NCBI GenBank assembly: GCA_937883885.1
Contig: CAKZXL010000800.1
Span: forward strand, 1-32,471
Reading direction: 5' to 3'
Source of the DNA: an uncultured Aquincola sp.
Lineage (GTDB): Bacteria; Pseudomonadota; Gammaproteobacteria; Burkholderiales; Burkholderiaceae
Length of the DNA stretch: 32,471 nucleotides
Shown here: positions 1 through 20,663 of the stretch, one piece after another
How the letters are laid out: every line of letters begins with the position of its first letter
Position numbering within the stretch: the first letter of the stretch is position 1
Made by a program: the position numbers and the translations under genes
Notes under the pieces: model-generated
Told to the model about the DNA's origin: nothing
Database searches by the model: none
What the model saw: the letters and a program-made list of their open reading frames with translations, nothing else

Positions 1-648
1 AGAAGGTCGAACTGCTTGCAGCCAAACTGCCTGCATGACAACCCGGCCTTGACCCAATCAGGTCACGCTGCAGGATGGGGGTCACACGGCCCTACGCAGC
101 GATCCCCCTCGATTGCACTTGCCCTGGGAACTACCTTCCACAGCGATTGGGGGGGGGCATTATTGCAGCCAGAACTTCCAAGCTGCGTCAGTAAGCAGGG
201 GCAACATCAGGGCGAGCTGAGATGTTCCGATTCGTCGGGTAGTTATCGAGAAGTACCGACTGTTTGCAACGTGTCGGTACCGAGAACCGTCTGGGCGAGC
301 CAGATTTCCGGCCCATTGGAAGTCCGCAGTCCGCAAGCGCGGATCGATCGAGTGATTTGTTGAAAGTCAACGACCTAGCATCGGGCCGTGCAGGCTAGTG
401 AGGGTTTCTGCGGGTTCGTGCGGAAAGATTCGAACTCCTGCGGGGTCTGGGTGGGGTGGAACCCTGCGCCAAACCTATGTAACTCAGCGCCTTACGACCG
501 CTGCGAACTCCTGCGGAAAGGCGCGGACTCCAGCCCCATCTGCCTACAATCCTACCAGTTCTGCCTGGTCGAGGTCATCCGTCCAGGGCATCACTGAGGG
601 CGCCAGTTCGATTCCCATTTGCGGAATTGAACCCGCGTCCGCAATTGG
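1..648. other. Non-coding left flank, no supported gene
   Basis: No reading frame in this stretch looks like a real protein: the open frames are short, lack a good ribosome binding site, and have no recognisable motif. Visible structure is limited to a nine-G homopolymer at 149-157, a pair of short direct repeats (431-443 and 504-516), and a weak 7-bp inverted repeat (619-625 with 638-644) downstream of the DCL-family gene. T-loop-like strings such as GTTCGATTCC occur near 607, but no complete tRNA can be folded. It may be decayed sequence at the edge of the island; this is inference. Confidence 0.5.
431..516. repeat. Short imperfect direct repeat pair in the left flank
   Basis: The 13-mer CGAACTCCTGCGG occurs at 431-443 and again at 504-516, and the 9-mer TGCGGAAAG occurs at 419-427 and 512-520, so the two copies carry related pieces in different order. 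No gene or known element explains them. They may be remains of a local duplication or of an old insertion site, and chance is possible given the GC bias. Confidence 0.3.
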
Positions 649-1395
649 TCAAGTCAATCGTACCGGGCGCGCAATTTTAGGTCTTCGAGCTTGGCTCGCG
701 GTCTGGAGGTTGGCTGACTTGGAGAGGATTCGTAGCATCGCCTGGTTGTGGTGGTAGTCGCGGAAGGCATCCGCGACAGCCTTGTCGATGAATGTTGGCG
801 TCGTCTGCCCATCAGCCGGAGCGGACACGATCCCGTCAGGGATGTCACCTGACCAGCCCCTGGCCGCCCGAAAGCCACTGACGATATGCGAGAAGTTTGG
901 CCAAGCGTGATCCAGATGGGCGTCGTCGATGCTGACCATCACGCCAGTCAGTTCGCATGCAACCAGCCCATGAGCGTCGCCATGCTCCGCGAAGGCACGC
1001 TTCTTGGCCAGAACGAGATCGAGTGCGACAGCCTCCCGGCATGCGCCGTAGAAATCCTTCGACCGGTCCCCTGGTAGGCCTTTGACGGCCCAGATATACG
1101 AAAAGTCCGTGGCGGACCCGTCCCGTCGAACCACCCAAAAGCCGGAGTTGCTCCAGCCCGTTCCCGTGTTCATGCGCCGTTCGAAGTGGCCGATCTGGCC
1201 ACAACCCTTCGCCGGCTCACCAACCTGGTCAAGAATCGGGTCATACCGTTCGATGAGGGCCACCAAGTCAGCGTGGTCACCTGGGTCAGAGATACGATCC
1301 CCGTCCTGGTACCGGTGTAGCAGCGTCTTGTAATGGTCCAGTGCGCTTTTCTGGGTTCGGAAGCTCCGCGAGCCGATGACGACAGGTTTGGCCAT
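649..1395 (-). CDS. DCL family (DUF3223) protein with HNH-like C-terminus
   Basis: A 248-residue protein. Residues about 18-105 match the DCL/DUF3223 domain: a helix with LLHRYQDGDRI (25-35), a segment DLVALIERYDPIL (43-55), and the signature RRDGSATDFSY (90-100). This domain is known from plant chloroplast DCL proteins and the tails of plant RNA polymerases IV/V, and also occurs in bacteria. The second half holds C147-x-x-T-G, D162-H163-x-x-P166, H215/H216 and N229, which resembles a metal-dependent HNH (beta-beta-alpha) nuclease arrangement, though zinc-binding cysteine pairs are missing. The start has a good AGGAGA site (1404-1409). It lies 55 bp after herA on the same strand, so it is probably the last gene of the nurA-herA operon. 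The domain call is fairly firm; nuclease activity is inference. Confidence 0.72.
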   Translation of the reverse strand: MAKPVVIGSRSFRTQKSALDHYKTLLHRYQDGDRISDPGDHADLVALIERYDPILDQVGEPAKGCGQIGHFERRMNTGTGWSNSGFWVVRRDGSATDFSYIWAVKGLPGDRSKDFYGACREAVALDLVLAKKRAFAEHGDAHGLVACELTGVMVSIDDAHLDHAWPNFSHIVSGFRAARGWSGDIPDGIVSAPADGQTTPTFIDKAVADAFRDYHHNQAMLRILSKSANLQTASQARRPKIARPVRLT

Positions 1396-1450
1396 TTTTC
1401 ATTTCTCCTGGCTCATCACTCACTTCCCCACAAGTGCCGGATGTCGGCAG

Positions 1451-3565
1451 TCACTTGTGAGCCCTAATCCATGTCTTGCCCGTCGACGTACTCTTGAACG
1501 TCTCCCATCCTCTGGGTTGTGAGCCGAAAATCGCATTCATCGCCTTTGAAACCAGGTTGTAAGCAAACTGACGGCGGTCTTCCAAGTGTTCCGGCAGGTG
1601 GTCAATCAGAAACTGCTGAACTCCATACCAAGGCATGCCATTCGAAGATTCGAGCTTCTGGCGGATGTCGGTATCTCCTTGCAAGGCATCAATCGCTCGC
1701 TGCTCTATGGTTGCCATGACGTCCACTGGCTCGGAGTCTTCGAAACCAGCCTCAGCAGAAAAGAGCGAGCCTGAAGCGTTTGCGTCTGGAACCCGGGCTG
1801 CCGCAGCACTCTGCTTCATTCCAGAGAAAGTGCTGCGCAGCGTTTGCGCATATGTATTCCCTACGGGTTGGTTGTAGTCATGGTCCCGCATTGAATACAT
1901 CTTCTCGAACGACAGTGCGCGGAGGCTGACCGGATAAGGTTTGCCTCCCACCGAACTCCAGAACACACCTTGGCCTGGGATCGGCTCATTGAGTAGCGAA
2001 CTCAAAAGGTCGTCACTGAAATGGGCGTTGGCTCGTTTCAGGGATGTAAGGTCGGCTGCGGACAACAAATGGAAGATGAACCAGTTGTCGCCCTGGCTGA
2101 GGATCTCGACTGGAATGCTGCCGGGTTGCTGCGTGATCAGCAGTGCCCCGAGGTCGTATTTACGGCCTTCCTTCACCCAGGCAATGTAAGGCTCGGCGGC
2201 AGGTGCGTTCTCGTTCAACACAGATTGCGCTTCTTCGACAACGGCGATCGTCGGGATGGTCTTGGGGTCGGCAGCGGTGAACTCTTGCTGGTTCCGATCG
2301 AAGATCCGGCGCAGGATCAGGCCAGAGAGCACCAGGGACTGGCCCCCGCGCATCTGGGAGACGTCGATAACGCACAGCTTTCCCTCGGAAAGCGCATGAA
2401 CCAGCATGTCCATGAGCTGACTGCTCTTGTCATGCAGCATCTTCACGATCGCTGTCATGTTGCCCCGGGCTGCCAGCGCCTCGGCCTCCTGTCGCTGAGG
2501 GTCGAGATCGAGCAGTCCACATACGTCTTCGAGCGGCGTGGTGTTGCCATTGGCGTCTATTAGATTGACCAGCGACTCCCAGCGATCTTGTGGAAGCCCC
2601 CTGAGCTTCCGCACGTTCTGCTGTTCCTGGCGCTCTGCTCCGAGTGCAATTGAAATTACATCCCCAGGCCGAAGGCGACGGATATCAAGCTTGATACCGC
2701 CCGCAACGAACGATTGGTAGAAAGGGCTTGGATTCTTTCGGTCGGTGAAAACGACGACCTTGTCTTCCAGCGCCGGGACATCGCATAGGCCGGGTCGACC
2801 CTTGTCGTCTGGCCAGAAATACTCCCCATCCGGGTCAAAGATGACCGTGCCCACAGGGACCTGCTTACCTGCGCGCTTGGTCACGAAGGGCGTGTTTTCG
2901 TAGAGCTTCGAGAAAAGCAGTTTGTTGAGGTTGGATTTACCGAAGCCCGCTCGCGCGAAGATGAAGCTACGGCGAGAGACCAGGGACTCGATCGGGAAGC
3001 GAACCAGCACCTCCGGGTCGACCACCTGCATCCATTCCTGCGATTGGAATGATTTGTTGCCGGCTGCGTAGATGTATTCCCCGAAGGCTAGATGGCCTAT
3101 GGGGGCTCCATCAATGTTGTGTCCAGCGATCTCGCGCAACACCTCGGCGCTTGGAAAGGCAACCTTGCTGCCGACATGGGGAAGTCGACGATGGGAGGGA
3201 ACGAATGTCAGCCCGTTGCCGTTCTTGCGTAGGACACCGAGCACGCGGATGTTGATCCGATACTTGAGATACTGCTCACGCAAATCCTCCGGAATAGGTC
3301 TTTCCTCGCGAACTGCACGGATGTTGAACTCCTCGCCGGAGCCGAACGACAGCTTGCCCTCAGAGGAAAAGGATGCAATGCGGCCCAACACCGCCTCATC
3401 GGGTGTCTCCAGTTGGACGATGAGGAATTGCCCGTGCATCGGGATGTTCTGGAACTCGTTTCGGTACGGCAAAACGAGGTCGGCGTGGAATTCCATGCCC
3501 CCCTGCTGGAAGCCACGAAAGATCCCGACGACCTGTTCTCTGGGAAAGAGTTGGATTTCTGCCAT
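1451..3565 (-). CDS. herA: HerA-family DNA-translocating ATPase
   Basis: A 704-residue ATPase of the HerA/FtsK-like (DUF87) superfamily, expected to form a hexameric ring that pumps duplex DNA into a partner nuclease. Residues about 1-140 fit the N-terminal HAS-barrel. The Walker A loop is ARAGFGKSN (204-212), in which alanine replaces the usual first glycine. A DPDGEYFW segment (about 244-251) follows, then a Walker B at about 436-445 ending in EEAQ, then LLITQQPGSIP, the usual sensor-like stretch of this family. The C-terminal 150 residues are variable and unassigned. The start has a GGGAGA site that overlaps the end of nurA, with only 11 bp between the two genes, so the pair is co-translated. 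NurA is the expected partner. Bacterial HerA homologues are known in anti-phage systems with Sir2, DUF4297 or NurA partners. Confidence 0.88.
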   Translation of the reverse strand: MAEIQLFPREQVVGIFRGFQQGGMEFHADLVLPYRNEFQNIPMHGQFLIVQLETPDEAVLGRIASFSSEGKLSFGSGEEFNIRAVREERPIPEDLREQYLKYRINIRVLGVLRKNGNGLTFVPSHRRLPHVGSKVAFPSAEVLREIAGHNIDGAPIGHLAFGEYIYAAGNKSFQSQEWMQVVDPEVLVRFPIESLVSRRSFIFARAGFGKSNLNKLLFSKLYENTPFVTKRAGKQVPVGTVIFDPDGEYFWPDDKGRPGLCDVPALEDKVVVFTDRKNPSPFYQSFVAGGIKLDIRRLRPGDVISIALGAERQEQQNVRKLRGLPQDRWESLVNLIDANGNTTPLEDVCGLLDLDPQRQEAEALAARGNMTAIVKMLHDKSSQLMDMLVHALSEGKLCVIDVSQMRGGQSLVLSGLILRRIFDRNQQEFTAADPKTIPTIAVVEEAQSVLNENAPAAEPYIAWVKEGRKYDLGALLITQQPGSIPVEILSQGDNWFIFHLLSAADLTSLKRANAHFSDDLLSSLLNEPIPGQGVFWSSVGGKPYPVSLRALSFEKMYSMRDHDYNQPVGNTYAQTLRSTFSGMKQSAAAARVPDANASGSLFSAEAGFEDSEPVDVMATIEQRAIDALQGDTDIRQKLESSNGMPWYGVQQFLIDHLPEHLEDRRQFAYNLVSKAMNAIFGSQPRGWETFKSTSTGKTWIRAHK

Positions 3566-3576
3566 GTTGTTCTCCC

Positions 3577-4719
3577 TTATCCGTACCGACGCTGCGCTGG
3601 ATCGGCATCCTGCAGCTGAAACGCATCCAATGTGCCTGCGTCGCCGCCGAGACTCGAACGCACACCCTCGTAGATGAAGTCCTGCAAAATATCGAAGTCG
3701 AAATCGACCAGCGCCGCATTTTCATGCGCCTTTTGCAGGCAGCGTGGGTAATGGGGAACTGGAAAACCGTTGATCGCATCAGCAAGCATGGACCCGAGAA
3801 TTGCCTGGGACTCGCCGACTTGTGGAACAAAGATATCGATTGGCCACACGGGATCGCGGCGCTGGGAGCCAAACTTCACCAAGAACATTTTGCCGCCGAC
3901 GAACTTGTTGATTTCGCCGCCATCGCCAGTACGGTCATCGCCTCGTGCGAACTCCGACCAGACGTATGCCTTTTCTTCAACTTCGCGGGGTACCTCGACG
4001 TAGACGGGGTAATCAGTCTGAAGGACGCCTTCCAAAGCCATGGCCAAGCGATACCGAGAAAGCACCTTGCTGTGCTTGGCTACACCCGCGAGATATACCC
4101 GCCGCCGGCTCTTGCTCCATTGCTTGTCAATACGCTCCTTCATTCCTTGGAGCAAACGCTGGAATAGGTCTTTGGCGAACACCTTGCTTCGCAGAAGGCC
4201 GTCGCAGATGATCAACGTGTCAGTGCCGTAATCTTTATCGAGGATCTTGAACAGGATCGCCCACTCGACCAGCTCCCGATAAACCTGAACCCAGCTGGGA
4301 GAAACCGGCTTTCCGCTGTCCGTCGGTCGGATCATGTGGGAGAGCGCCTGCAGACTGTCTACTCCTAGGAAAACCATCATTTCACCCAGTGCTGTTTTGG
4401 GCGTCCCGTCCTCATCGAACTGGCGTTGGTTCAGTTTCTGCACCGGTGTCGTGGGCGAAACTGCTTCAAGGCAGTACTCGTTGTTGCTGCTATCTACGAC
4501 TCGGACCAACTGAATCAGGAAGGGGTCGAACTGAAGCTGGTTGTTTCCCCCATCTGTGCCAACCAGTGAGATCGACGTCGTGGCGCGCGGCTGGATTCGG
4601 CGCGTGGCACTCTTCAACGACTGTATTTCTTCTCGCAGAGCATCCAGCACCCCTTGGTCGGTTCCGATGCAGTCTGCGATGGCCTCTTTCAGTTGGGCCT
4701 GGCTTGCCGGGTCAATCAT
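3577..4719 (-). CDS. nurA: NurA-domain nuclease, partner of HerA
   Basis: A 380-residue protein when started at MIDPAS. NurA nucleases are RNase H-like, Mn-dependent, and digest DNA fed by HerA. The expected acidic sites are visible: VGTDGG with D56, and IICDGLL with D173. A basic GVAKHSK segment (about 213-219) and the terminal PHYPRCLQKAHENA block (about 322-335) also fit the family. An ATG five codons upstream (4734) is in frame, but it sits within the sequence that forms the strong AGGAGG site (4724-4729) lying five bases before the ATG at 4719, so 4719 is the better start. The start codon overlaps the stop of a 28-codon upstream ORF as ATGA. With herA 11 bp downstream, a NurA-HerA complex is very likely. 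The residue assignments are by eye. Confidence 0.82.
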   Translation of the reverse strand: MIDPASQAQLKEAIADCIGTDQGVLDALREEIQSLKSATRRIQPRATTSISLVGTDGGNNQLQFDPFLIQLVRVVDSSNNEYCLEAVSPTTPVQKLNQRQFDEDGTPKTALGEMMVFLGVDSLQALSHMIRPTDSGKPVSPSWVQVYRELVEWAILFKILDKDYGTDTLIICDGLLRSKVFAKDLFQRLLQGMKERIDKQWSKSRRRVYLAGVAKHSKVLSRYRLAMALEGVLQTDYPVYVEVPREVEEKAYVWSEFARGDDRTGDGGEINKFVGGKMFLVKFGSQRRDPVWPIDIFVPQVGESQAILGSMLADAINGFPVPHYPRCLQKAHENAALVDFDFDILQDFIYEGVRSSLGGDAGTLDAFQLQDADPAQRRYG

Positions 4720-4802
4720 GCTCCCTCCTGACATTTCGCTGATTCAACGCGATGCCAGCCCTTGTTGGGGAGTCCTGGCTGGGCCCTACGGTTTCCACTC
4801 AT
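4716..4802 (-). CDS. 28-residue leader ORF translationally coupled to nurA
   Basis: This small ORF begins MSGNRRAQPG and ends KCQEGA. It has a canonical AAGGAG ribosome binding site (4812-4817) nine bases before its ATG, and its TGA overlaps the nurA ATG (ATGA). It is too short for most gene finders. It has no recognisable domain, signal peptide or membrane segment, and contains one cysteine and several basic residues. The good start signal plus the exact overlap suggest it is translated, either as a small protein of the NurA-HerA system or as a leader peptide that sets the translation rate of nurA. Which of the two cannot be told from sequence. Confidence 0.55.
   Translation of the reverse strand: MSGNRRAQPGLPNKGWHRVESAKCQEGA
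4723..4729 (-). promoter_or_regulatory. Strong ribosome binding site that fixes the nurA start
   Basis: On the minus strand the string AGGAGGG lies just before the ATG at 4719. It lies inside the leader ORF and downstream of the competing ATG at 4734, whose own upstream sequence (AGCGAA) is a poor match. This supports the shorter NurA. Confidence 0.65.
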
Positions 4803-4823
4803 GCAGGTTCGCTCCTTCTCTAT

Positions 4824-4842
4824 AGCGAGCGACCCGCTTGCT
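4824..4842. promoter_or_regulatory. Inverted repeat, possible operator upstream of the nurA leader
   Basis: AGCGAGCG and CGCTTGCT, separated by ACC, form an 8-bp arm repeat with one mismatch, placed just upstream of the leader ORF ribosome binding site. The motif ACCCGC inside it (4832-4837) recurs at 4921-4926 and 4951-4956 near the WYL gene start. It is a plausible binding site for the divergently encoded WYL regulator, but no experiment or known operator was compared. Confidence 0.3.
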
Positions 4843-4891
4843 GCATGGTCATAATCACAAGGATGCGGATATGGGCGCTCTGGGAATCGCA

Positions 4892-4920
4892 TAGACGGAT
4901 TGTAGTGCGTGCCATATACT
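4892..4920 (+). promoter_or_regulatory. Sigma-70-type promoter for the WYL/hsd operon
   Basis: A -35-like TAGACG (4892-4897) and a -10-like TATACT (4915-4920) are separated by 17 bp, matching the sigma-70 layout (four and five of six consensus bases). Transcription would start near 4927, about 43 bases before the WYL gene ATG. ACCCGCA repeats at 4921-4927 and 4951-4957 fall between the -10 box and the start codon, where a repressor could act. Confidence 0.5.
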
Positions 4921-4969
4921 ACCCGCAACTATCATCACAAGCATTTGTTAACCCGCATGAGCCCCAAGG

Positions 4970-5863
4970 ATGTCTGACGAACAGCTTGACGACCTTACCC
5001 AGCCGCAGCGCGATCGCCTTGCCTTCGTGGAACTGCGCGTGCGCTTCATCGGAGATATCCGCCGCCAGGACCTGGTGTCGCGGTTTGGAATCCAGTCGGC
5101 CGCCGCCACGCGTGACCTGGCGATCTACAAGGAGCTGGCACCAGGCAACATCGATTACGACACCAAGGCCAAGTGCTATGTCCTTGGAGAGGACTTCAAA
5201 CCGCTCTTCGACTTTCCGCCTGAACGGGTTCTGTCCTGGCTGACACAAGGCTTCGGAGACGGCGAGCCCTCCCAGCTCAAGGCGTGGGTGGCAAGTGAAA
5301 TCCCGTCAAGGCTCACGCATCCCGACCTGGATGTACTGGCCTGTGTAACGCGCGCGATCCATCAGGAGTGTCCTATTCGGGTGGAGTACCACTCGATCTC
5401 AAGCGGTCAGACCGAGCGCCAGATCGTTCCCTTTGCGCTGATCGACAACGGCCTGCGCTGGCATGTGCGGGCCTTCGATCGCAGGTCTCAGGAGTTTCGG
5501 GATTTCGTGATCACCCGGATCAAGGGACCGGTCTTGTTGCGAGATGAAGAAGTGCAGGCCCATGAGCGCGGCGACCAGGATATCCAATGGACGCGAATCG
5601 TCGAGCTGGAACTGATTCCCCACCCAGACCAGCCACGTTCTGAGGTTACCGAGATGGACTACGGCATGCGGGATGGCGTGCTGCGCATGAAGCTCCGCGC
5701 CGCGACGGCTGGATACATTCTGCGCAAGTGGAGCGTGGACAGCTCGCCCGATCACAGCCTGAGAGGGCCGGAGTACCGGCTCTGGCTAAAGAACCCCTTG
5801 GCCCTATACGGCGTCAGGAACGCGGTGCTCGCGCCTGGCTACCGATCGCCGGACCAAGCATGA
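4970..5863 (+). CDS. WYL-domain transcriptional regulator, CapW/BrxR-like
   Basis: A 297-residue regulator with three parts: a winged helix-turn-helix at about 10-75 (RRQDLVSRFGIQSAAATRDL fits the recognition region), a WYL domain at about 125-190, and a WCX-like C-terminal domain at about 205-290. The WYL core shows Y140, S145-G146, R150, P154, W164-H165-V166, R168, D170 and R183, the pattern of CapW/BrxR repressors that guard CBASS, BREX and other defence operons. The ATG is preceded by AAGG. The gene heads the restriction operon, 13 bp ahead of hsdM1, and diverges from the nurA-herA operon, so it probably represses one or both until it senses a ligand or DNA signal. The ligand is unknown. 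Confidence 0.85.
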   Translation: MSDEQLDDLTQPQRDRLAFVELRVRFIGDIRRQDLVSRFGIQSAAATRDLAIYKELAPGNIDYDTKAKCYVLGEDFKPLFDFPPERVLSWLTQGFGDGEPSQLKAWVASEIPSRLTHPDLDVLACVTRAIHQECPIRVEYHSISSGQTERQIVPFALIDNGLRWHVRAFDRRSQEFRDFVITRIKGPVLLRDEEVQAHERGDQDIQWTRIVELELIPHPDQPRSEVTEMDYGMRDGVLRMKLRAATAGYILRKWSVDSSPDHSLRGPEYRLWLKNPLALYGVRNAVLAPGYRSPDQA

Positions 5864-5876
5864 AGAGAACGACTTG

Positions 5877-7373
5877 ATGCAAGAAGCTCCAATCAATCTC
5901 AGTCAGCTCGAAGGCCACCTCTGGGAGTCCGCCAACATCCTGCGCGGCCCGGTGGATGCGGCTGACTTCAAGACCTACATCTTCCCGCTCCTGTTCTTCA
6001 AGCGGATCTGCGATGTCTGGGACGAGGAATACGCCGAGATCGTCGATGAGACCGGCGATGCCGAACTGGCCCTCTTCCCCGAGTCGCATCGCTTTCAGAT
6101 CCCGGATGACTGCCACTGGAATGACGTTCGTGCCGTGGCAACCAACGTCGGCAATGCCCTGCAGCGCGCCATGCGCGAAATCGAGAAGGCCAACCCGGAC
6201 ACCCTGTACGGCGTTTTCGGTGATGCCCAGTGGACCAACAAGGATCGACTCTCTGACGCGCTGCTCAAAGATCTGATCGAGCATTTCTCGCGCATCTCCT
6301 TCGGCAACAAAAACATCGCCTCCGATGTGCTGGGCGATGCCTACGAGTACCTGATCAAGAAATTTGCCGATGCCACCAACAAGAAGGCCGGCGAGTTCTA
6401 TACCCCGCGCAGTGTCGTGCGGCTGATGATCGAGATGCTCGACCCCAAAGAGGGCGAAACCATCTATGACCCGGCCTGTGGCACGGGCGGCATGCTGCTC
6501 GCTGCCGTTCAGCACGTTCAAGAACAGCATGGCGATGTGAAGCGTCTGTGGGGCAAGCTCTATGGGCAGGAAAAAAACCTCACCACCTCGTCCATTGCCC
6601 GCATGAACTTGTTCCTGCACGGCATCGAGGATTTTCAGATCGTGCGCGGCGATACCCTGCGCAACCCGGCCTTCTTCGAGGGTGACCGTCTGGCGAGCTT
6701 CGATTGCGTGATCGCCAATCCGCCCTTTTCCCTCGAAAAGTGGGGCGAAGACCTATGGGTGAACGATCCCTTCGGGCGCAACTTCGCAGGACTGCCCCCG
6801 TCCAGCAGCGGTGACTTTGCCTGGGTGCAGCACATGGTCAAGTCGATGGCCGAAGGGGCCGGGCGCATGGCCGTGGTGTTGCCCCAGGGCGCGCTGTTCC
6901 GCAAAGGGGCCGAGGGCAGTATCCGCCAAAAGTTACTGGAGATGGATCTGGTCGAGGCGGTCATCGGCCTGGCGCCCAACCTTTTCTATGGCACAGGCCT
7001 CGCCGCTTGCATCCTGGTACTCCGCAAGAAGAAGCCGGCCCAGCGGCGTCAGAAGGTGATGATCGCTGACGCCTCCAGGCTCTTCCGACGTGGTCGGGCA
7101 CAGAACTATCTGGAACCCGAGCACGGCCTCGAAATCCAGGGTTGGTTCGAGAAGTTTGAGGATGTGCAGGACGCGGTGCGCATCGTCGGCCTGGATGAAA
7201 TCAAGGCCGAGGACTGGACGCTGAATATCTCGCGCTATGTCCTGCCGCCGTTGCAGGAGGATATCCCGCCGCTGCCAGAAGCCATTGAGTCCTTCAAGAG
7301 TGCACTCACTCGCTGCCGGGAAGCGGAAGACAGGCTGGCCAAGGTCATGGTGGAAGGAGGCTGGCTGCAATGA
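5877..7373 (+). CDS. hsdM: Type I restriction-modification methylase subunit, first copy (HsdM1)
   Basis: A 498-residue adenine-N6 methyltransferase subunit. An HsdM_N helical domain covers about residues 7-150 (PLLFFKRICDVWDEEY is typical). The catalytic domain carries the AdoMet-binding motif DPACGTGGM starting at D198 and catalytic motif IV NPPF at 281-284. KKFADATNKKAGEFYTPRSV just before the fold is the usual lead-in. ATG at 5877 is preferred over an in-frame TTG three bases upstream; the ribosome binding site is weak (AAGAGAA), so translation may depend on the WYL gene upstream. Its length is normal for HsdM. The stop overlaps the start of a second, paralogous hsdM, which is unusual. 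Confidence 0.92.
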   Translation: MQEAPINLSQLEGHLWESANILRGPVDAADFKTYIFPLLFFKRICDVWDEEYAEIVDETGDAELALFPESHRFQIPDDCHWNDVRAVATNVGNALQRAMREIEKANPDTLYGVFGDAQWTNKDRLSDALLKDLIEHFSRISFGNKNIASDVLGDAYEYLIKKFADATNKKAGEFYTPRSVVRLMIEMLDPKEGETIYDPACGTGGMLLAAVQHVQEQHGDVKRLWGKLYGQEKNLTTSSIARMNLFLHGIEDFQIVRGDTLRNPAFFEGDRLASFDCVIANPPFSLEKWGEDLWVNDPFGRNFAGLPPSSSGDFAWVQHMVKSMAEGAGRMAVVLPQGALFRKGAEGSIRQKLLEMDLVEAVIGLAPNLFYGTGLAACILVLRKKKPAQRRQKVMIADASRLFRRGRAQNYLEPEHGLEIQGWFEKFEDVQDAVRIVGLDEIKAEDWTLNISRYVLPPLQEDIPPLPEAIESFKSALTRCREAEDRLAKVMVEGGWLQ

Positions 7374-8887
7374 GTGCCCGCATTACCCAACAAGAACTCG
7401 AATCCTATCTCTGGGGCGCCGCCGTACTGCTGCGTGGCCTCATCGATGCCGGCGACTACAAGCAGTTCATCTTTCCGCTGCTGTTCTTCAAACGCATCTC
7501 GGATGTCTGGGACGAGGAATATCAGGCGGCGCTCAGGGAGTCGGGCGGCGACTTGTCCTATGCCGAGTTCGCCGAAAACCATCGCTTCCAGATACCGGAT
7601 GGCGCGCATTGGAAGGACGTACGCCAGGTCCCGAAAAACGTCGGCATGGCGATCCAGTCAGCCTTGCGGCAGATCGAAGCGGCCAACCCGGACATGCTGG
7701 CCGGGATTTTTGGCGATGCGCCCTGGACCAACCGAGAGCGCCTGCCGGACGAAACCCTCAAGAATCTGATCGAGCATTTCTCGACGCAAACACTCTCGGT
7801 CGCCAATGTACCCGAGGACGAGCTCGGCAACGCCTACGAGTTCCTGATCAAGAAGTTCGCCGACGACTCCGGCCACACAGCCGCCGAGTTCTATACCAAC
7901 CGCACGGTCGTGCATCTGATGACACAGTTGTTGGCCCCGCAGGCCGGCGAGTCGATCTACGACCCCACCTGCGGCACCGGCGGCATGCTCATTTCCGCTC
8001 TGGCCGAGGTCAAGCGCAGCGGCGGCGAGTACCGCACCCTCAAGCTCTACGGGCAGGAGCGCAACCTGATCACCTCCGGTATTGCCCGGATGAACCTGTT
8101 CCTGCATGGCGTCGAGGATTTCCAGATCATCCGGGGCGACACCCTGGCCGATCCCAAGCACATCGAAGGTGACCGGCTGCGCCAGTTCGACGTGATCCTC
8201 GCCAACCCACCGTACTCCATCAAACAGTGGGATCGCGAGGCCTGGGGCCAGGATAAATGGGGGCGCAACTTCCTCGGCACGCCACCGCAAGGTCGGGCCG
8301 ACTACGCCTTCCAGCAGCACATCCTGGCCAGCCTGTCAGACCGTGGCCGCTGCGCCATTCTGTGGCCACACGGCGTGCTGTTCCGCAACGAAGAACAAGC
8401 CATGCGCGCCAGGATGGTCGAGCAGGACTGGGTTGAAGCGGTGATCGGCCTTGGGCCGAATCTCTTCTACAACTCGCCGATGGAGTCCTGCGTCATGGTC
8501 TGCAACCGGTGCAAGCCAGCCGAGCGCAAGGGCAAGGTGCTGTTCATCGACGCGCTGAACGAAGTCACCCGCGAGCGGGCGCAGAGTTTCCTCAAGCCGG
8601 AACACCAGCAACGCATCCTGGAAGCGTTCCGCGCTTTCGCACCGATCGATGGCTTTGCAGCGGTGGCGACGCTGGACCAGATCGCCAGCAACGGTGCGAA
8701 CCTGTCGATTCCGTTCTACGTGAGGCGAGTGTCTGGCTCGGTGAATGGCAACGGCACAAATGCTGCCATCAGCCTGAGATCGGCCTGGGAACAGTGGCAA
8801 ATCGACGGGCGCGCCTTCTGGCAACAAATGGACGCCTTGGTGGAAACGCTTGATGGCCTGGAAGTCGAGGAGGTCGAGCGTGCTTGA
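7370..8887 (+). CDS. hsdM: Type I restriction-modification methylase subunit, second copy (HsdM2)
   Basis: A 505-residue paralogue of the preceding gene, colinear over its whole length and identical at roughly half of positions by eye. The AdoMet motif is DPTCGTGGM (from D198; threonine replaces the alanine of HsdM1) and motif IV is NPPY (279-282), so both copies look catalytically intact. Its ATG overlaps the HsdM1 stop as ATGA, giving tight translational coupling. The divergence between the two argues against a recent duplication and for two specialised subunits, perhaps one per half-site of the HsdS target, giving an M1-M2-S enzyme in place of the usual M2S. That stoichiometry is inference. 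Confidence 0.92.
   Translation: MSARITQQELESYLWGAAVLLRGLIDAGDYKQFIFPLLFFKRISDVWDEEYQAALRESGGDLSYAEFAENHRFQIPDGAHWKDVRQVPKNVGMAIQSALRQIEAANPDMLAGIFGDAPWTNRERLPDETLKNLIEHFSTQTLSVANVPEDELGNAYEFLIKKFADDSGHTAAEFYTNRTVVHLMTQLLAPQAGESIYDPTCGTGGMLISALAEVKRSGGEYRTLKLYGQERNLITSGIARMNLFLHGVEDFQIIRGDTLADPKHIEGDRLRQFDVILANPPYSIKQWDREAWGQDKWGRNFLGTPPQGRADYAFQQHILASLSDRGRCAILWPHGVLFRNEEQAMRARMVEQDWVEAVIGLGPNLFYNSPMESCVMVCNRCKPAERKGKVLFIDALNEVTRERAQSFLKPEHQQRILEAFRAFAPIDGFAAVATLDQIASNGANLSIPFYVRRVSGSVNGNGTNAAISLRSAWEQWQIDGRAFWQQMDALVETLDGLEVEEVERA
8867..8873 (+). promoter_or_regulatory. Ribosome binding site that sets a GTG start for hsdS
   Basis: GAGGAGG lies six bases before GTG at 8880, inside the end of hsdM2. 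In-frame TTG and ATG codons at 8850-8855 lack such a site. This favours the GTG start. Confidence 0.6.
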
Positions 8888-10055
8888 TAAGGCCAAAAAG
8901 CAAGGCTGGCGCCAGGTGAAGTTCGGCGACGTGGTGCGCCAAGTTAAGGAAAGAGTTGATCCAGAGACTTCAGGGCTGGAGCGCTACGTCGCCGGTGACC
9001 ACATGGATACCGACGATTTGCGAATCCGTCGCTGGGGTGAGATCGGCAGTGGCTATCTCGGGCCTGCATTTCATATGCGCTTCCGGCCAGGGCAGGTGCT
9101 TTACGGATCTCGGCGAACCTACCTCCGCAAGGTGGCCGTCGCAGACTTCGATGGCATCTGCGCCAACACTACCTTTGTGATTGAGCCAAAGGACGCGGAG
9201 GAGCTGCTGCCCGAGTTCCTTCCGTTCCTCATGCAAACGGATGCTTTTAACGAGTTCTCCGTCAAGAACTCCAAAGGCTCAGTGAATCCGTATATCAACT
9301 TCTCTGACTTGGCGCGATTTGAGTTCGCGTTACCGCCGCTGGAGGAGCAGCGAAAAGCAGCCGAGGCCCTCGAGCTATTCGACGAACAGTCTGGCGCGTT
9401 TGAATCCTTGATTTCGACCGCACGGCAACTTCAACGTGCTCTTTCGATAGACCACTTTGACGCCGATCACCCGAACAGAGTGTCAGTCGCCAATGTTGGA
9501 ACATGGCATAGCGGAGGTACGCCGGCACGTGGCAACCCATCGTATTGGGGCGGAAGCATTCCTTGGATCAGCCCTAAAGACATGAAAGCCGCAGAGCTGG
9601 GCAGTGCAACCGAAACTGTAACCCCTTCGGGAGTAGAGGCGGGTTCTAAGTTGATGCCTGCCGACACAATCATGATCGTGGTGAGGGGAATGATTCTGGC
9701 CCATACATTTCCCGTCGCTAGGACGCTGGTGCCGGCCGCTTTCAATCAAGACATGAAAGCACTTGTGGTGTCCGACAGCTTCCGACCGAAATACATTCAG
9801 TATTGGTTTGAACATTCGGCTGAGCGATACCTTCAGCTCGTATCAGCGTCTTCACATGGAACAAAGCGTCTGGAGAGTGACAAGCTCTTTTCACTGTCCG
9901 TTCCCGCAGTCTCACTTGATGAACAAGATGTATTCATTGCCCAAATCGATGCCCTCCGGCAAGCGTGCCATCAGGCAGAGCAGCGTCGGCAAGATGCCTT
10001 GGCGGTGAAGCGAGCATTTCTAAACGGGCGGCTCTTTAGCGAGGTTGGGGAATGA
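8880..10055 (+). CDS. hsdS: Type I restriction-modification specificity subunit (HsdS)
   Basis: A 391-residue specificity subunit that reads a bipartite DNA target and directs HsdM and HsdR. Two target-recognition domains are visible: TRD1 at about residues 8-150, closing with FALPPLEEQRKAAEALELFD, and TRD2 at about 200-375, opening with the common GGTP...YWGGSIPWISPKD pattern and closing with SVPAVSLDEQDVFI. Each is followed by a helical spacer. The two TRDs are unlike each other, so an asymmetric bipartite site is expected. The second half looks lower in GC than its neighbours, as is common in exchanged TRDs. The GTG start overlaps hsdM2 by eight bases and the stop overlaps hsdR as ATGA. 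Confidence 0.9.
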   Translation: MLDKAKKQGWRQVKFGDVVRQVKERVDPETSGLERYVAGDHMDTDDLRIRRWGEIGSGYLGPAFHMRFRPGQVLYGSRRTYLRKVAVADFDGICANTTFVIEPKDAEELLPEFLPFLMQTDAFNEFSVKNSKGSVNPYINFSDLARFEFALPPLEEQRKAAEALELFDEQSGAFESLISTARQLQRALSIDHFDADHPNRVSVANVGTWHSGGTPARGNPSYWGGSIPWISPKDMKAAELGSATETVTPSGVEAGSKLMPADTIMIVVRGMILAHTFPVARTLVPAAFNQDMKALVVSDSFRPKYIQYWFEHSAERYLQLVSASSHGTKRLESDKLFSLSVPAVSLDEQDVFIAQIDALRQACHQAEQRRQDALAVKRAFLNGRLFSEVGE

Positions 10056-13030
10056 CAGGTTTCACTGAGGCAAATACCGTAGAAGCCTATCTCTACGATC
10101 TGCTATCTGGACCGGCAAAGCCCATCCCCGCCAATGTCGTACAGGAGCCAGAAGCCACCTACGGCCGCAGCCACAAGGGCATCGGCTGGCGCCGCATCGC
10201 CAGCGCTGAGATTCCGCGCCAGCACCAGGACGTACTGGTTGAGTCCTGGGCGCGTGAGGCGCTGATTCGCCTCAATCCGGAAATTGCCGCCCAGCCCGAT
10301 CTCGCCGACGAGGTGCTCTACAAGCTGCGCGCCATTGTGCTAGCGGTGCGCTCCGATGGTCTGATCCGCGCCAACGAGGAATTCACGGCCTGGCTCAGGG
10401 GGGAGCGTTCCATGCCCTTCGGCCAGAACAATGAGCACGTGCCGGTTCGGTTGATCGATTTCGACAACCTCGATCAGAACCAGTACGTCGTCACCCAGCA
10501 GTTCACCTTCCGCGCAGGCAGCGCCGAGCGTCGCGCCGATCTGGTCCTGCTGGTCAACGGCCTGCCGCTGGTTTTGATCGAGGCCAAGACGCCTACGCGC
10601 TCGGCGGTGAGCTGGGTGGATGGCGCGTTGCAGGTGCATGACGATTACGAGAAGCACGTGCCGGAGCTGTTCGTCTGCAATGTGTTCTCGGTGGCCACCG
10701 AAGGGAAGGAATATCGCTACGGCTCGCTCGGCCTGCCCATCAAGGATTGGGGGCCGTGGAACCTGGAGGATGACGGCGACGCGCTCAAGCACCCGCTGAA
10801 AGGCTTGAAACTGGCTGCCGAGAGCATGCTGCGGCCCCATGTGGTGCTCGACATCCTGGCCAACTTCACCCTGTTCGCCACCAACAAGAAAAAGCAGCGC
10901 ATCAAGATCATCTGTCGCTATCAGCAGTACGAGGCGGCCAACAAGATCGTCGAGCGGGTGCTGGCCGGCTATCCGAAGAAGGGCCTGATCTGGCATTTCC
11001 AGGGGTCAGGCAAGTCGCTGCTGATGGTGTTCGCGGCGCAGAAGTTGCGCCTGCATCCGCGCTTGAAGAATCCCACGGTGCTGATCGTGGTCGACCGTGT
11101 CGATCTCGATACCCAGATCACCGGCACCTTCACCGGGGCCGATATCCCCAACCTCGAGAAGGCCGACTCCCGCGACAAGCTGCGCCAACTGCTGGCGCAG
11201 GACGTGCGCAAGATCATCATCACGACGATCTTTAAGTTCGGCGAAGCCGGTGGTGTGCTGAATGATCGCGGCAACATCATCGCCTTGGTGGACGAGGCGC
11301 ACCGCACTCAGGAAGGCGACCTCGGCCGCAAGATGCGCGAGGCGCTACCGAATGCTTTCCTGTTCGGCCTTACCGGTACGCCAATCAATCGCTTCGACCG
11401 CAACACCTTCTACGCCTTCGGCGCGGAGGAGGATGACAAGGGGTATCTCAGCCGCTACGGCTTCGAGGAGTCGATCCGCGACGGCGCGACACTGAAGCTG
11501 CACTTCGAGCCGCGCCTGCTGGAGCTGCACATCGACAAGGCAGCCATCGATGCCGCCTTCAAGGAGATGACCGGCGGTCTCTCCGACCTCGACCGCGACA
11601 ACCTCGGCAAGACCGCCGCCAAGATGGCGGTGCTGGTGAAGACCCCGGAGCGCATCCGACGCGTGTGCGAGGACATCGTCCAGCACTTCCAGAGCAAGGT
11701 AGAGCCGAACGGTTTCAAGGGCCAGATCGTCACCTTCGACCGCGAATCCTGTCTGCTCTACAAGCAGGAGCTGGACAAGCTGCTGCCGCCGGAGTCCTCC
11801 GACATCGTGATGACGGTGAACGCCAACGAGCCGCAGTACAAGGCCTATGCGCGCACGCGGGATGAGGAAGAGCGGCTGCTCGACCGCTTCCGCGACCCCA
11901 ACGACCCGCTCAAACTAATCATCGTCACCTCGAAGCTGTTGACCGGCTTCGACGCGCCCATCCTGCAGGCGATGTATCTGGACAAGCCGCTGCGCGACCA
12001 CACGCTGCTCCAGGCCATCTGCCGGGTGAACCGCACCTACTCCGAGCAGAAGACCCATGGTCTGATCGTGGATTACCTCGGCATCTTCGACGACGTGGCC
12101 AAGGCGCTGGAGTTCGACGACAAGAGCGTCACGGCGGTGGTGTCGAATATTCAGGAGCTCAAGGACCGGCTGCCGGAGGCGATGCAGAAATGCTTGGCTT
12201 TCTTTGCCGGCGTTGATCGCACTGTCGAGGGTTACGAGGGGCTGATCGCCGCCCAGCAATGCCTGCCCAACAATGAGGTACGCGACAACTTCGCTGTCGA
12301 GTACAGCCTGCTCAATAAGCTCTGGGAGGCCATCTCGCCAGATCCGATCCTCGGTGAGTACGAGAGGGACTACAAGTGGCTCTCGCAGGTGTACCAGTCG
12401 GTGCAGCCCTCCAGCGGCCACGGCAAGCTGATCTGGCATTCCCTCGGGGCCAAGACCATCGAGCTGATTCACCAGAACGTGCACGTCGACGCCGTTCGCG
12501 ACGATCTCGACACTCTGGTGCTGGACGCGGATCTGCTGGAGGCGGTGCTCTCGAATCCCGATCCTAAAAAGGCCAAGGAAATCGAGATCAAGGTTGCCCG
12601 GCGGTTACGCAAACACCTCGGAAACCCAAAGTTCAAGGCGCTCTCGGAACGCCTGGATGCCCTACGGGACCGCTTCGAGTCCGGTGTGCTCAACAGCGTC
12701 GAGTTTCTCAAGCAACTGCTGCAACTGGCCAAGGAAGTGTTGCAGGCGGAGAAGGAAACACCTCCGGAAGAGGACGAGGATCGTGGCAAGGCGGCGCTCA
12801 CCGAGCTGTTCAATGAAGTTAAGACCGCCGAGACGCCGATCATGGTCGAGCGCGTGGTGGCGGATATCGACGAGATCGTGCGCTTGGTCCGGTTTCCCGG
12901 TTGGCAGGACACCCTCGCTGGCGAGCGCGAGATCAAGAAGGCGCTCAGGAAATCCTTGTTCAAGTACAAGCTGCATGCGGATGAAGAGCTGTTCGAGAAA
13001 GCGTACAGCTACATCCGGCAGTATTACTGA
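10052..13030 (+). CDS. hsdR: Type I restriction endonuclease, motor subunit (HsdR)
   Basis: A 992-residue translocating nuclease. The N-terminal PD-(D/E)XK nuclease shows D163 followed by E177-A-K179 in the string LIEAKTP. The SF2 motor follows with Walker A QGSGKS (317-322), DEAH (414-417), GLTGTP, and motif VI-like QAICRVNRTYSEQ. The remainder, from about residue 690, is the helical C-terminal region that contacts the methylase core. All catalytic motifs are intact, so the system is probably active. Its ATG overlaps the hsdS stop, and a GmrSD gene starts nine bases after its stop. It would translocate DNA and cut at distant sites when the HsdS target is unmethylated. Confidence 0.95.
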   Translation: MTGFTEANTVEAYLYDLLSGPAKPIPANVVQEPEATYGRSHKGIGWRRIASAEIPRQHQDVLVESWAREALIRLNPEIAAQPDLADEVLYKLRAIVLAVRSDGLIRANEEFTAWLRGERSMPFGQNNEHVPVRLIDFDNLDQNQYVVTQQFTFRAGSAERRADLVLLVNGLPLVLIEAKTPTRSAVSWVDGALQVHDDYEKHVPELFVCNVFSVATEGKEYRYGSLGLPIKDWGPWNLEDDGDALKHPLKGLKLAAESMLRPHVVLDILANFTLFATNKKKQRIKIICRYQQYEAANKIVERVLAGYPKKGLIWHFQGSGKSLLMVFAAQKLRLHPRLKNPTVLIVVDRVDLDTQITGTFTGADIPNLEKADSRDKLRQLLAQDVRKIIITTIFKFGEAGGVLNDRGNIIALVDEAHRTQEGDLGRKMREALPNAFLFGLTGTPINRFDRNTFYAFGAEEDDKGYLSRYGFEESIRDGATLKLHFEPRLLELHIDKAAIDAAFKEMTGGLSDLDRDNLGKTAAKMAVLVKTPERIRRVCEDIVQHFQSKVEPNGFKGQIVTFDRESCLLYKQELDKLLPPESSDIVMTVNANEPQYKAYARTRDEEERLLDRFRDPNDPLKLIIVTSKLLTGFDAPILQAMYLDKPLRDHTLLQAICRVNRTYSEQKTHGLIVDYLGIFDDVAKALEFDDKSVTAVVSNIQELKDRLPEAMQKCLAFFAGVDRTVEGYEGLIAAQQCLPNNEVRDNFAVEYSLLNKLWEAISPDPILGEYERDYKWLSQVYQSVQPSSGHGKLIWHSLGAKTIELIHQNVHVDAVRDDLDTLVLDADLLEAVLSNPDPKKAKEIEIKVARRLRKHLGNPKFKALSERLDALRDRFESGVLNSVEFLKQLLQLAKEVLQAEKETPPEEDEDRGKAALTELFNEVKTAETPIMVERVVADIDEIVRLVRFPGWQDTLAGEREIKKALRKSLFKYKLHADEELFEKAYSYIRQYY

Positions 13031-13039
13031 GGCCCGAGC

Positions 13040-15139
13040 ATGAAAGCAGAAGACACGCTGGTTACCAATCTGCTGCAGGGCGCGAAGCAATTCATCGTGC
13101 CGATCTTTCAGCGCGACTACAGCTGGGGCACGAAGCACTGCCAGCAACTGTGGAAGGATGTGATTCGCGTCGGTAGCGACCCAAACGTGAAGGGGCACTT
13201 CCTTGGCTCAGTGGTCTATGTCGCAGCCGAGGACAACACAGCCACCATCACTCGTTGGTTGTTGATCGACGGCCAACAACGCCTTACTACGCTGACGCTT
13301 TTGTTGATCGCGCTTCGTGACCAGATGGCACAGCTTCCTGGCAATTCCGGTCAGGGAGAGGAGGAAGCGACGCCCGATGAGCTGGACGACTATTACCTGC
13401 GCAACCGCCACGGCAAGGGAGAGCGGCGGCACAAGCTGCATCTGCGCCGGGCAGATCACGAAACGCTGATTGCGCTTCTGGATGGAAAGACGTTGCCAGA
13501 GGCCGCCTCGGAACGGGTGAAGGAGAACTTCCTGTTCCTGCGTGATTTGGTCGCCCAGGCGGACGTGCAAACCGTCTACAACGGCATCAAGAAACTGGTG
13601 GTCGTGGACGTGAGTCTGACGCGCGGCCAGGATGACCCGCAGATGATCTTTGAAAGCCTGAACTCTACCGGGGTGGATTTGACTCAGGCCGATCTGATTC
13701 GAAATTTCGTGCTGATGCGTCTGGACGAGTCCTCCCAGACCCAGCTTTACGAAGAACACTGGCAGCCAATCGAGCAGGCATTCGGGCGGCGCTACCGTAC
13801 CGAGTTCGATAAATTCGTGAAGGATTTTCTGACGCTGCAAATGCGTCCCGGCACGCCATTGAAGGCGGCCGAGATCTATCACGAGTTCCGCAGCTATTTC
13901 TCGCGTACTGTCGAAAAGCGTGGTGTCGATGGCATTCTCAGCGACCTGCGGCGCTTCGGCACCTACTACACGGCATTCAGTCTCGGACAGGAGAAGCAGC
14001 CGGCATTAAAGGAGGCATTTGCCCGCCTGCGTTCCCTGGTCGAGGTGGCTTCGCCGGTCGTGCTGACGCTTTACGACTTTCATGACCGAGCAAAGACCCT
14101 GCGTTCCGATGAATTCGTCGAGGCTGTCGAATTGCTGGAAAGCTTCGTGTTCCGGCGTTCAGTGTGCGACATGCAAACGCGCAGCCTCGGACAAATATTC
14201 GCAAGCCTCGCCTATCGGATCACCGAGAACCAGCCTTTGCTCAGTTTGAAGGTGGCGCTGTATCGGCAAGGCAAGAAGCGCCGCTTTCCGAGCGATACCG
14301 AATTTCGCGAGGCGCTCGAAACACGAGATGTCTACGACATGCGCACTTGCTTCTATCTGCTGGATCGGCTTGAAAACTTCAGCAAGGAGCGCATCGATAC
14401 CTCGAACTTCTCCATTGAGCACGTTATGCCGCAGAACGAGGATCTGCGTCCGGAATGGCGAACGATGCTCGGTAGCGACTGGAAAGCAATACAGGAAACG
14501 TGGCTACACCGCCTGGGCAATCTGACGCTGACCGGATACAACTCCACTTACAGCGACCGCCCATTTTCCGAGAAGAAAACGATTGCCGGTGGTTTCGATG
14601 AGAGCCCGCTGCGCTTGAACAAGTTCATTCGCGAACAATCAGCGTGGGACGGTACGACCATCGAGCAGCGAGGCAAGTTGCTCGCCGAGAAGGCCGTGAC
14701 CGTATGGCGACCATTGGTCGTCGATTTGCTGGCCGTGAAGCAGCGGGAGTTGGAGGAGCACAAGGCCTTTGCCGCCAACTACAGGATCGAGGACCTGGAA
14801 CTGGATGACATCGCCAAGCGGTTACTGGAAGCTTTACGTCCACAGATCCAGGCATTTGGTGAAGACGTAGTCGAGCTGCCCAACGACCGGAGCGTTATCT
14901 ACCGCGTGTTCGATTTCTTCGTCGAAATCATCCCGCGTAAGCAGCGGCTGAGCCTCTTGCTGAATCTGGATTTTGCCGACTGCGAAGATCCATCAGGGAA
15001 AGCCCGCGATGCTACGGAGTTCGCCTTCATCATCGGCGCAACTGAGACGGGTGGAGTGCTGTACAACCTGGACTCGCAAGACGATGTGCCGGCCTCGATC
15101 AACGTGGTCCGACAAGCGTATGAGCGTGTGACAGAGTGA
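13040..15139 (+). CDS. GmrSD-type fused type IV restriction enzyme (DUF262 + DUF1524)
   Basis: A 699-residue single-chain GmrSD homologue. The DUF262 (GmrS-like) part at about residues 5-240 has IFQRDYSW (22-29), the nucleotide-binding ParB-like DGQQRLTT (77-84), and FESLNSTGVDLTQADLIRN. The DUF1524 (GmrD-like) HNH nuclease shows IEHVMPQ with H461 and HRLGNLTLT with H490, followed by a YN...F.EKK ending. Residues from about 590 resemble DUF5655, a frequent tail domain of this family. Known members cut DNA carrying modified cytosines such as glucosylated hydroxymethylcytosine, using NTP. It begins nine bases after the hsdR stop on the same strand, so it is probably expressed with the type I system and covers phages whose base modifications defeat it. 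Confidence 0.9.
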   Translation: MKAEDTLVTNLLQGAKQFIVPIFQRDYSWGTKHCQQLWKDVIRVGSDPNVKGHFLGSVVYVAAEDNTATITRWLLIDGQQRLTTLTLLLIALRDQMAQLPGNSGQGEEEATPDELDDYYLRNRHGKGERRHKLHLRRADHETLIALLDGKTLPEAASERVKENFLFLRDLVAQADVQTVYNGIKKLVVVDVSLTRGQDDPQMIFESLNSTGVDLTQADLIRNFVLMRLDESSQTQLYEEHWQPIEQAFGRRYRTEFDKFVKDFLTLQMRPGTPLKAAEIYHEFRSYFSRTVEKRGVDGILSDLRRFGTYYTAFSLGQEKQPALKEAFARLRSLVEVASPVVLTLYDFHDRAKTLRSDEFVEAVELLESFVFRRSVCDMQTRSLGQIFASLAYRITENQPLLSLKVALYRQGKKRRFPSDTEFREALETRDVYDMRTCFYLLDRLENFSKERIDTSNFSIEHVMPQNEDLRPEWRTMLGSDWKAIQETWLHRLGNLTLTGYNSTYSDRPFSEKKTIAGGFDESPLRLNKFIREQSAWDGTTIEQRGKLLAEKAVTVWRPLVVDLLAVKQRELEEHKAFAANYRIEDLELDDIAKRLLEALRPQIQAFGEDVVELPNDRSVIYRVFDFFVEIIPRKQRLSLLLNLDFADCEDPSGKARDATEFAFIIGATETGGVLYNLDSQDDVPASINVVRQAYERVTE

Positions 15140-19439: not shown

Positions 19440-19451
19440 CAGCTGCAGTAT

Positions 19452-20663
19452 TCAAACTCTTTCGACGTGAAAATCGAACTCGACGGCGGCAGCAGACTCG
19501 GCTTTCATTTGATCTGCTTGCCGCTTGCCAACATCAGCTGACTTTGCTGAGCGCGTAGAAACCAAGCGCCAATTGATTCCAGATTCCTCCAAAGAGTCCC
19601 TGAAGAGTTTTTTTGCATCAACCAACGCTGACGGAATTATTCCGAATCGTATGTACATATGGAGCGATTCGGAGGGCGAGGCGGTATTGGCAATATTGCG
19701 CCAAACCTTTCCAAGCGAAACTGCGAATGCCTGTTGCCCACCGTGATCCAGTTGCGGGCCGGCTGAATAGTCAATGGAATCGGGGCCACCCAGAAACCAA
19801 TTTCTCAACCATTGGTCCTGAACATATGTCCGCATTCCGTAGTATGGAGGAGAAGTGATTACAACCGAGGGCGCTTTGCTAATCGACTGAAACAACTCTT
19901 CCGACTGAGCATCTCCATGTAGGACATGAGATATTGGACAAGGCGATGCTTCATCAAGTCCAGCCAACCGCTCGATCTTTCGACGCAGCACTCGGAGTAC
20001 ATCGATCTTTGGCGCTTTGAGGTCGCGTTCCTTCCAGAATCGCACCGCGTAGTCCGGTTTTGACGCGTAAGTCCTCGGCATTTGATTTGAAAAGTAGCCC
20101 GCGTTCTCAACATGCTTGGGAAGTGGGCCATGCAAACATCCGAGTGCAGCAGCACGCAATATGGACGATGCATCCGTTTCATTTTCGAGTCCGAGCAATC
20201 CTTCGCGCAGGGCGCAAATATCACGGAGCGTCGACCGGTGATACGCGGAACGAAAGAATGGAGTGTCTGGCAAGTCGGCTGGCTCGACGTCTGAAATTAG
20301 TTCAGCAGCAAGCTCTAGAGGAGCCTCGATGTCGCAGCTCGCAAGTTTGGCTCTCGCAATAGCAACAGCAACTGGTGATGAATCAATGCCCCAGGCAGAA
20401 AACCCAAACTTTCGCGCAGAGAATAGAGTGGTGCCTCGACCACAAAATGGGTCGAGCACAACTGGCTTTTCCTTTAGATGCCTTTTGAGGACCCTGTTCG
20501 GATACTCAAGCGGAAACATCGTAAAGTAAGGGCAAATTGCGTTCAGCGCATTTTCTTTATTATAGGCAAGGGCCACGTTCTGGGTACTTGTGCTTGGCTT
20601 GAATTTTGGATATAAGGAGCAGTTTACACGGCTATGAGCGTGTAGGGAACGTTTCGCACTCAT
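19452..20663 (-). CDS. DNA methyltransferase (N4-cytosine or N6-adenine) coupled to the phage lysozyme
   Basis: A 403-residue AdoMet-dependent DNA methyltransferase. The AdoMet motif DPFCGRGTT is at 71-79, followed by a motif II aspartate (WGID, D94), and the catalytic motif is SPPY at 271-274. SPPY is typical of N4-cytosine enzymes. The AdoMet motif comes first and about 190 residues separate it from the catalytic motif, long enough to hold a recognition domain, as in the alpha arrangement. No restriction endonuclease accompanies it. Its ATG overlaps the lysozyme TGA (ATGA), so it is translated from the phage late transcript. By eye it is more AT-rich than the tail genes, suggesting a later acquisition (a moron). 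It probably protects phage DNA from host restriction. Confidence 0.83.
   Translation of the reverse strand: MSAKRSLHAHSRVNCSLYPKFKPSTSTQNVALAYNKENALNAICPYFTMFPLEYPNRVLKRHLKEKPVVLDPFCGRGTTLFSARKFGFSAWGIDSSPVAVAIARAKLASCDIEAPLELAAELISDVEPADLPDTPFFRSAYHRSTLRDICALREGLLGLENETDASSILRAAALGCLHGPLPKHVENAGYFSNQMPRTYASKPDYAVRFWKERDLKAPKIDVLRVLRRKIERLAGLDEASPCPISHVLHGDAQSEELFQSISKAPSVVITSPPYYGMRTYVQDQWLRNWFLGGPDSIDYSAGPQLDHGGQQAFAVSLGKVWRNIANTASPSESLHMYIRFGIIPSALVDAKKLFRDSLEESGINWRLVSTRSAKSADVGKRQADQMKAESAAAVEFDFHVERV

Follow-up and report, generated by a model that had tools for sequence, protein, structure and literature searches.

The window analysed here, a stretch of 32,471 nucleotides (nt) of contig CAKZXL010000800.1 from an uncultured Aquincola sp., contains a NurA-HerA gene pair which is probably the engine of a methylation-protected, restriction-like system. 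HerA would thread and translocate duplex DNA as a hexamer, NurA would cut the translocated DNA, and self DNA would be spared if marked by a DNA methyltransferase of one particular family, as judged by analogy to TdpAB. As described in the first-pass annotation of this DNA, nurA (3577-4734, 385 amino acids (aa)) and herA (1451-3565, 704 aa) are followed by a DUF3223 gene (649-1395, 248 aa); all three lie on the minus strand, with gaps of 11 bp and 55 bp. In archaea, NurA-HerA is known for its part in end resection, and we know of no settled job for the pair in bacteria.

Protein families of the window were assigned by Pfam scans of its 20 main open reading frames (ORFs) and PADLOC scans of ten proteins, supplemented by PHROGs and NCBIfam for some proteins. 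NurA obtained no family match in any of these four collections, and as a single sequence it gave nothing meaningful against the Protein Data Bank (PDB; best E 0.51, to P450s). A profile of 35 rows, however, revealed TdpB (8wet_G, E 0.0046) as the sole PDB chain with an E-value of 1 or below. The best fold matches of the AlphaFold model (predicted local distance difference test score 83.1) are TdpB (E 2.1e-12) and the NurA of S. solfataricus (E 4.8e-7), and D61-G62 as well as D178-G179 are invariant across the 35-row alignment. HerA, a DNA translocase ATPase of the FtsK/HerA family, matches PF01935 with 67.9 bits and has TdpA (8wet_A, E 2.9e-22) as its best PDB match. A NurA nuclease fold is thus found next to a HerA translocase in the window. 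The true NurA start is probably at 4719, since GGAGG precedes this ATG and most of the 120 listed homologues have 380 aa; the operon end at 4802 given earlier lies too far out, beyond even the ORF end at 4734.

NurA of the window is 77-91% identical to proteins from genomes labelled Nitrospirae, Acidobacteria, Chloroflexus, Verrucomicrobia and others, many of them metagenome-assembled genomes (MAGs). Other lineages stand at 60-66%, and 77-91% across phyla is unusually high for a nuclease, which suggests recent transfer or tight constraint. Within the phylum the gene is rare (2 of 398 genomes). Neither the 72,556 plasmid records nor the 50,697 phage records searched by tblastn with NurA contained a match, and scans of the viral_contigs set gave no locus for NurA, one for HerA and one for the NurA alignment; L091 and L127 are one contig (L-numbers denote loci found in the surveys, G-numbers genomes). 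On plasmids, HerA matches occurred in seven records at identities of up to 31%, none of them spanning 80% of the query.

To place the pair in a wider context, 84,980 species genomes were scanned with NurA, yielding 60 loci that comprise close relatives only (identities 60-100%). In 58 of them HerA comes next after NurA, either complete or truncated at a contig end; the other two are L037, where the contig ends, and L060, where NurA is broken. The usual third gene encodes a DNA methyltransferase of about 366 aa with the motifs DPFCGRGTT and TSPPY. Members of this one family touch NurA-HerA in 43 of the 60 loci: directly 3' of HerA in 41 (33 on the same strand, eight on the opposite one) and directly 5' of NurA in two. 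The eight opposite-strand cases are seven scored by script plus L055, whose second, partial NurA-HerA copy, downstream of NurA-HerA-methyltransferase (5154-12917 of that locus), misled the script. In five loci (L003, L004, L005, L017, L023) the methyltransferase is present elsewhere in the genome as a long open frame; the matches in L003 and L004 each contain one stop, ahead of the ORF start. In L011 both methyltransferase and HerA are broken. The whole assemblies of L002, L021, L030, L036 and L060 contain no methyltransferase of the family above 30 bits, and in L021 and L060 NurA or HerA is broken. Six loci (L009, L015, L025, L037, L040, L045) run into contig ends. The expected motifs were found in 57 of 61 NurA pieces, 50 of 55 HerA pieces and 43 of 46 methyltransferases; misses fall mostly on cut or broken genes, but two full-length methyltransferases, those of L028 and L054, lack them as well. 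In the window itself, the N4/N6 DNA methyltransferase of this family (19452-20663, minus strand, 403 aa, DPFCGRGTT ... TSPPY) is not adjacent to NurA-HerA, lying 14.7 kb away. Directly upstream of NurA, two loci encode a sacsin/NO VEIN-type protein of about 1100 aa (L004 6641-9892, Bordetella genomosp. 2; L005 6487-9855, Noviherbaspirillum).

The HerA-like hexamer of TdpABC reportedly works with a NurA-like dimer to degrade DNA unless it carries a phosphorothioate mark, which is said to be made by TdpC, an enzyme of the PAPS-reductase-like kind, and to protect self DNA. A linked DNA methyltransferase occupies the place of this reported marking enzyme in the NurA-HerA loci, and we therefore infer that the same logic may apply. 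No PAPS-reductase-like Pfam family was found among the 20 main ORFs of the window, TdpC itself not having served as a query. TdpAB of Thermus (PDB 8wet, 8wfd, 8y1k), likewise a HerA-like translocase with a NurA-like nuclease, is the best solved relative of both proteins. The anti-phage systems SIR2-HerA and DUF4297-HerA also combine an ATPase of the HerA family with an effector nuclease, but the partner in the window is NurA, and the NCBIfam models for anti-phage HerA were scored far below their cut-offs (48.8 bits for HerA_antiphage and 17.5 bits, against 800 and 850). The parts are individually of known kinds. The portions of the open-licence PubMed Central (PMC) literature covered described no defence system made up of NurA-HerA and a methyltransferase, nor did they name an HNH part in DUF3223 or describe the sharing of a methyltransferase; this is weak evidence of novelty.

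Several observations weigh against a methylation-protected engine. The TdpA match spans residues 393-554 of HerA only. The 60 loci are not independent, as L012/L013/L057 and L051/L052 are near-identical and L045 and L053 stem from one MAG. L030 and L036 are real exceptions to the pairing, with full-length NurA-HerA in assemblies that lack a family methyltransferase above 30 bits; their neighbours look like housekeeping genes by eye. In L002, the closest relative of the window, the MAG contig breaks off within the island, and elsewhere in the MAG there is just a 21-bit methyltransferase match. L006, L012 and L014 resemble the window by 92-93% in NurA and 86-94% in HerA but by only 43-46% in the methyltransferase, so that a strict match of engine and mark is not evident. 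A plasmid (L100) bears a methyltransferase of the clade adjacent to HerA, and the 17 kb of it that were read show no NurA-HerA. Finally, according to the accessible parts of PMC7767461, loss of the methylase from a Thermus operon of similar gene order has only minor effects on DNA transfer.

The phylogeny of the methyltransferases (FastTree, midpoint root, support values not read) contains two METHYLTRANSFERASE clades. Window-type enzymes (74-95% identity) occur in L004, L005, L017, L022 and L023, and those of the plasmids L098 and L099 (51-53%) group with them. The same engine thus occurs with either of two methyltransferases. The window type, in turn, is seen with NurA-HerA, with a helicase, and with both. 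In the window this helicase is a 1418-aa protein of superfamily 1 (SF1; 15183-19439, plus strand, AAA_11/AAA_12, DpdJ/MkoA-like), the first 900 residues of which have no Pfam match; its gene is convergent with that of the methyltransferase. The same convergent arrangement, at most 16 bp apart or overlapping, was found in seven loci (window, L098, L099, L102, L105, L107, L110), two of which are plasmids without NurA-HerA; as the loci came from searches with NurA or the methyltransferase, this count is biased towards helicase pairing. L028 has a more distant helicase that does not adjoin its methyltransferase. On plasmids CP050515 and NZ_CP147716 helicase and methyltransferase form a two-gene convergent pair, apparently a candidate defence system in its own right.

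A deletion form of the island, L017, bears on the partnership. It has kept the equivalents of window 1448-5877 and 19398-20713, and between its methyltransferase and the genes for NurA, HerA and an adjoining WYL regulator (7157-13269 of L017) two scars of about 110 bp are left of the restriction-modification (R-M; HsdS) and helicase genes. The methyltransferase still has an open frame, and WYL, NurA and HerA are also retained. Loss of R-M and helicase with conservation of the methyltransferase fits a need of NurA-HerA for the mark. In the window, the methyltransferase at the far end may serve NurA-HerA and the helicase both. Such a shared self-mark, one methyltransferase for two unrelated ATP-driven nuclease engines, would explain why none adjoins NurA-HerA there; taken jointly with the accessory role of DUF3223 considered below, we regard it as a tentative possibility.

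The DUF3223 protein matches Pfam PF11523 (39 bits, cut-off 21) and the PADLOC HamC model PDLC00202 (276 bits). Its N-terminal DCL domain has the NTF2-like fold of 2k0m. The C-terminal half contains A-H-x-D-H at 159-163 and N229 and is, as modelled, possibly HNH-nuclease-like; sequence profiles give no support for HNH in this half, Foldseek returned no significant match, and the likeness emerged from a re-examination of Foldseek's own candidates. The good ribosome binding site noted before is present as AGGAG, 9 nt 5' of the ATG, in the intergenic region behind HerA (1396-1450, minus strand), together with an inverted repeat read from the sequence, CACAAGTG...CACTTGTG, which extends into the HerA end. 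Close relatives (77-92%) are also found behind CBASS or BREX genes in the absence of NurA-HerA: WYL/BREX genes in L089 and L118, and a CapV/CD-NTase pair (CBASS) in L090, where DUF3223 is split over two frames. In all three the WYL gene lies on the same side of DUF3223. The slot between the two is exchangeable, holding NurA-HerA, CapV/CD-NTase or nothing. In L119 (8001-10580), a phage-like contig, an anti-phage dCTP-deaminase gene comes after DUF3223 (75%).

Distant relatives of DUF3223 are HamC proteins of type II Hachiman, and in four of the six loci read of 31 plasmid matches, DUF3223 comes behind Hachiman genes. The four Hachiman HamC proteins read keep a histidine matching H163 but lack H160, D162 and N229. 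HamA-HamB-HamC Hachiman shares the DUF3223 protein with the window, as far as the available portions of PMC8565338 describe it, whereas Pfam showed no DUF1837 (HamA) in the window and neither HamA nor HamB is among the PADLOC matches listed; in the same portions, the PADLOC authors call the defence role of DUF3223/HamC unknown. Altogether, DUF3223 looks like an interchangeable accessory of the element end and not like a core NurA-HerA subunit. That it is a general defence accessory with an HNH-like half, travelling among CBASS, BREX, Hachiman and NurA-HerA loci, is, together with the shared methyltransferase, a tentative possibility.

The first-pass annotation had proposed a defence system with the DCL protein as its third component, and had named a neighbourhood survey as one means of checking. 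The defence role remains likely in view of the dense island and of TdpAB as the nearest relative; the third component fell by the annotation's own test, because DUF3223 adjoins NurA-HerA in only 3 of the 60 loci (L002, L003, L023; L001 belongs to the same genome as L003). A dedicated three-gene system with DUF3223 as effector or sensor would agree with the shared strand, the short gaps, the good Shine-Dalgarno sequence, the recurrence of the same order and the same 55-bp gap in these three loci, and the possibly nuclease-like half. The three loci are, however, versions of one 20-kb island type at a prophage end and therefore not independent cases. The relatives behind BREX and CBASS genes do without NurA-HerA, and among the 398 genomes of the phylum NurA occurs in two and DUF3223 in five with only G001, drawn as the centre, in common; a search of 199 genomes of G010's phylum, run without a positive control, found no DUF3223. 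We consider such a dedicated trio very unlikely. Rather unlikely, at an estimate that overlaps with those for the other readings, is that the island methyltransferase belongs to the helicase alone and that NurA-HerA here is unmarked or has lost its partner. The convergent pairs, above all those on plasmids, point in this direction, as does the grouping of the window enzyme with helicase-paired methyltransferases instead of the bulk of the HerA-adjacent ones; L030 and L036 further show that NurA-HerA without a methyltransferase is possible. Against it, methyltransferases of the window clade accompany NurA-HerA in L017 and L022 with no helicase in the available DNA, and L017 kept its methyltransferase after the helicase was lost.

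Two further explanations take NurA-HerA out of defence. As far as the excerpts of PMC5365140 and PMC7767461 reach, the mobile element ICETh1 of Thermus thermophilus carries an operon of the same order, NurA, the HerA-family ATPase TdtA and an N4/N6 methylase, which is led by a type IIG enzyme and has been studied for DNA donation. The likeness to TTC1878/TTC1879/TTC1880 is one of gene order, and in the window it is DUF3223 that adjoins HerA while the methyltransferase is remote. In transjugation, donation by ICETh1 needs TdtA, and it drops by orders of magnitude when NurA is lost (4-5 for nurA in the accessible text of PMC5365140, where a figure legend numbers the bars otherwise). That the pair serves DNA transfer is nevertheless quite improbable for the window, the 20 main ORFs of which contain prophage lysis, tail and restriction genes but no relaxase or secretion family. 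The resection of double-strand break ends, as proposed for archaea and Deinococcus, would be in line with the same two-protein pairing, the NurA fold and the housekeeping-like surroundings of L030 and L036. No mre11 or rad50 family was found among the same ORFs, though, and a rare gene with such high identity across phyla resembles a transferred module. For T. kodakarensis, a role of HerA-NurA against foreign DNA is suggested in place of end resection, according to the accessible part of PMC12977600, and the resection role is thereby doubted in an archaeon. We hold end resection to be highly improbable here.

The NurA-HerA pair is embedded in a dense defence island. Divergent from nurA runs the gene of a WYL regulator of BrxR/CapW type (4970-5863; best PDB match 7qfz with 292 bits, CapW and BrxR also matching), followed, likewise on the plus strand, by a type I R-M block comprising two HsdM-like methyltransferases (5874-7373 and 7370-8887), the specificity subunit HsdS (8850-10055) and the restriction subunit HsdR (10052-13030), and by a GmrSD-family protein (13040-15139) ahead of the helicase. 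The regulator is shared with BREX/CBASS islands of BrxR/CapW type, the WYL-DUF3223 interval of the window being filled by NurA-HerA. Past the methyltransferase, prophage genes were found (endolysin, tail proteins, tape measure).

The order DUF3223-HerA-NurA / WYL-HsdM-HsdM-HsdS-HsdR-GmrSD-helicase / methyltransferase-endolysin is also present in other genomes. L002 shows 100% identity to the window for 8018 bp, at which point its contig stops. In Pokkaliibacter (L101/L102, one contig) the aligned parts show 91-96% DNA identity, and in Ectothiorhodospira (L110 and L111) 92-95% on two contigs meeting at the WYL-NurA gap, with the junction deduced from the arrangement in the window. The HsdS region varies, with about 0.4-0.7 kb lacking a DNA match between islands. 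No near match to window 1-5900 was found in E. coli genomes.

The outer boundary is formed by a conserved sequence 3' of DUF3223 (446-648, minus strand), recognized by comparison with other islands, where identity stops at window 450 (455 for L089). A tmRNA or tRNA attachment site was considered and rejected: ARAGORN found no RNA gene in the window and the flanks of five loci, and Rfam gave only sub-threshold hits for the L002 stretch and none in seven loci. The region is therefore referred to only as a shared element end, and three genomes yielded no second copy of it. Outside of it, window 1-445 has no clear gene and differs in sequence from L002. By eye, some of the end-region motifs recur in it, and it may represent another, tandemly arranged element.

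If the proposed function holds true, the wide and strongly conserved NurA-HerA-methyltransferase family would be a restriction-modification engine without a specificity subunit and the methyl counterpart of TdpABC. A methyltransferase common to two engines would represent a novel form of economy for defence islands, and a nuclease half would give DUF3223/HamC a testable function.

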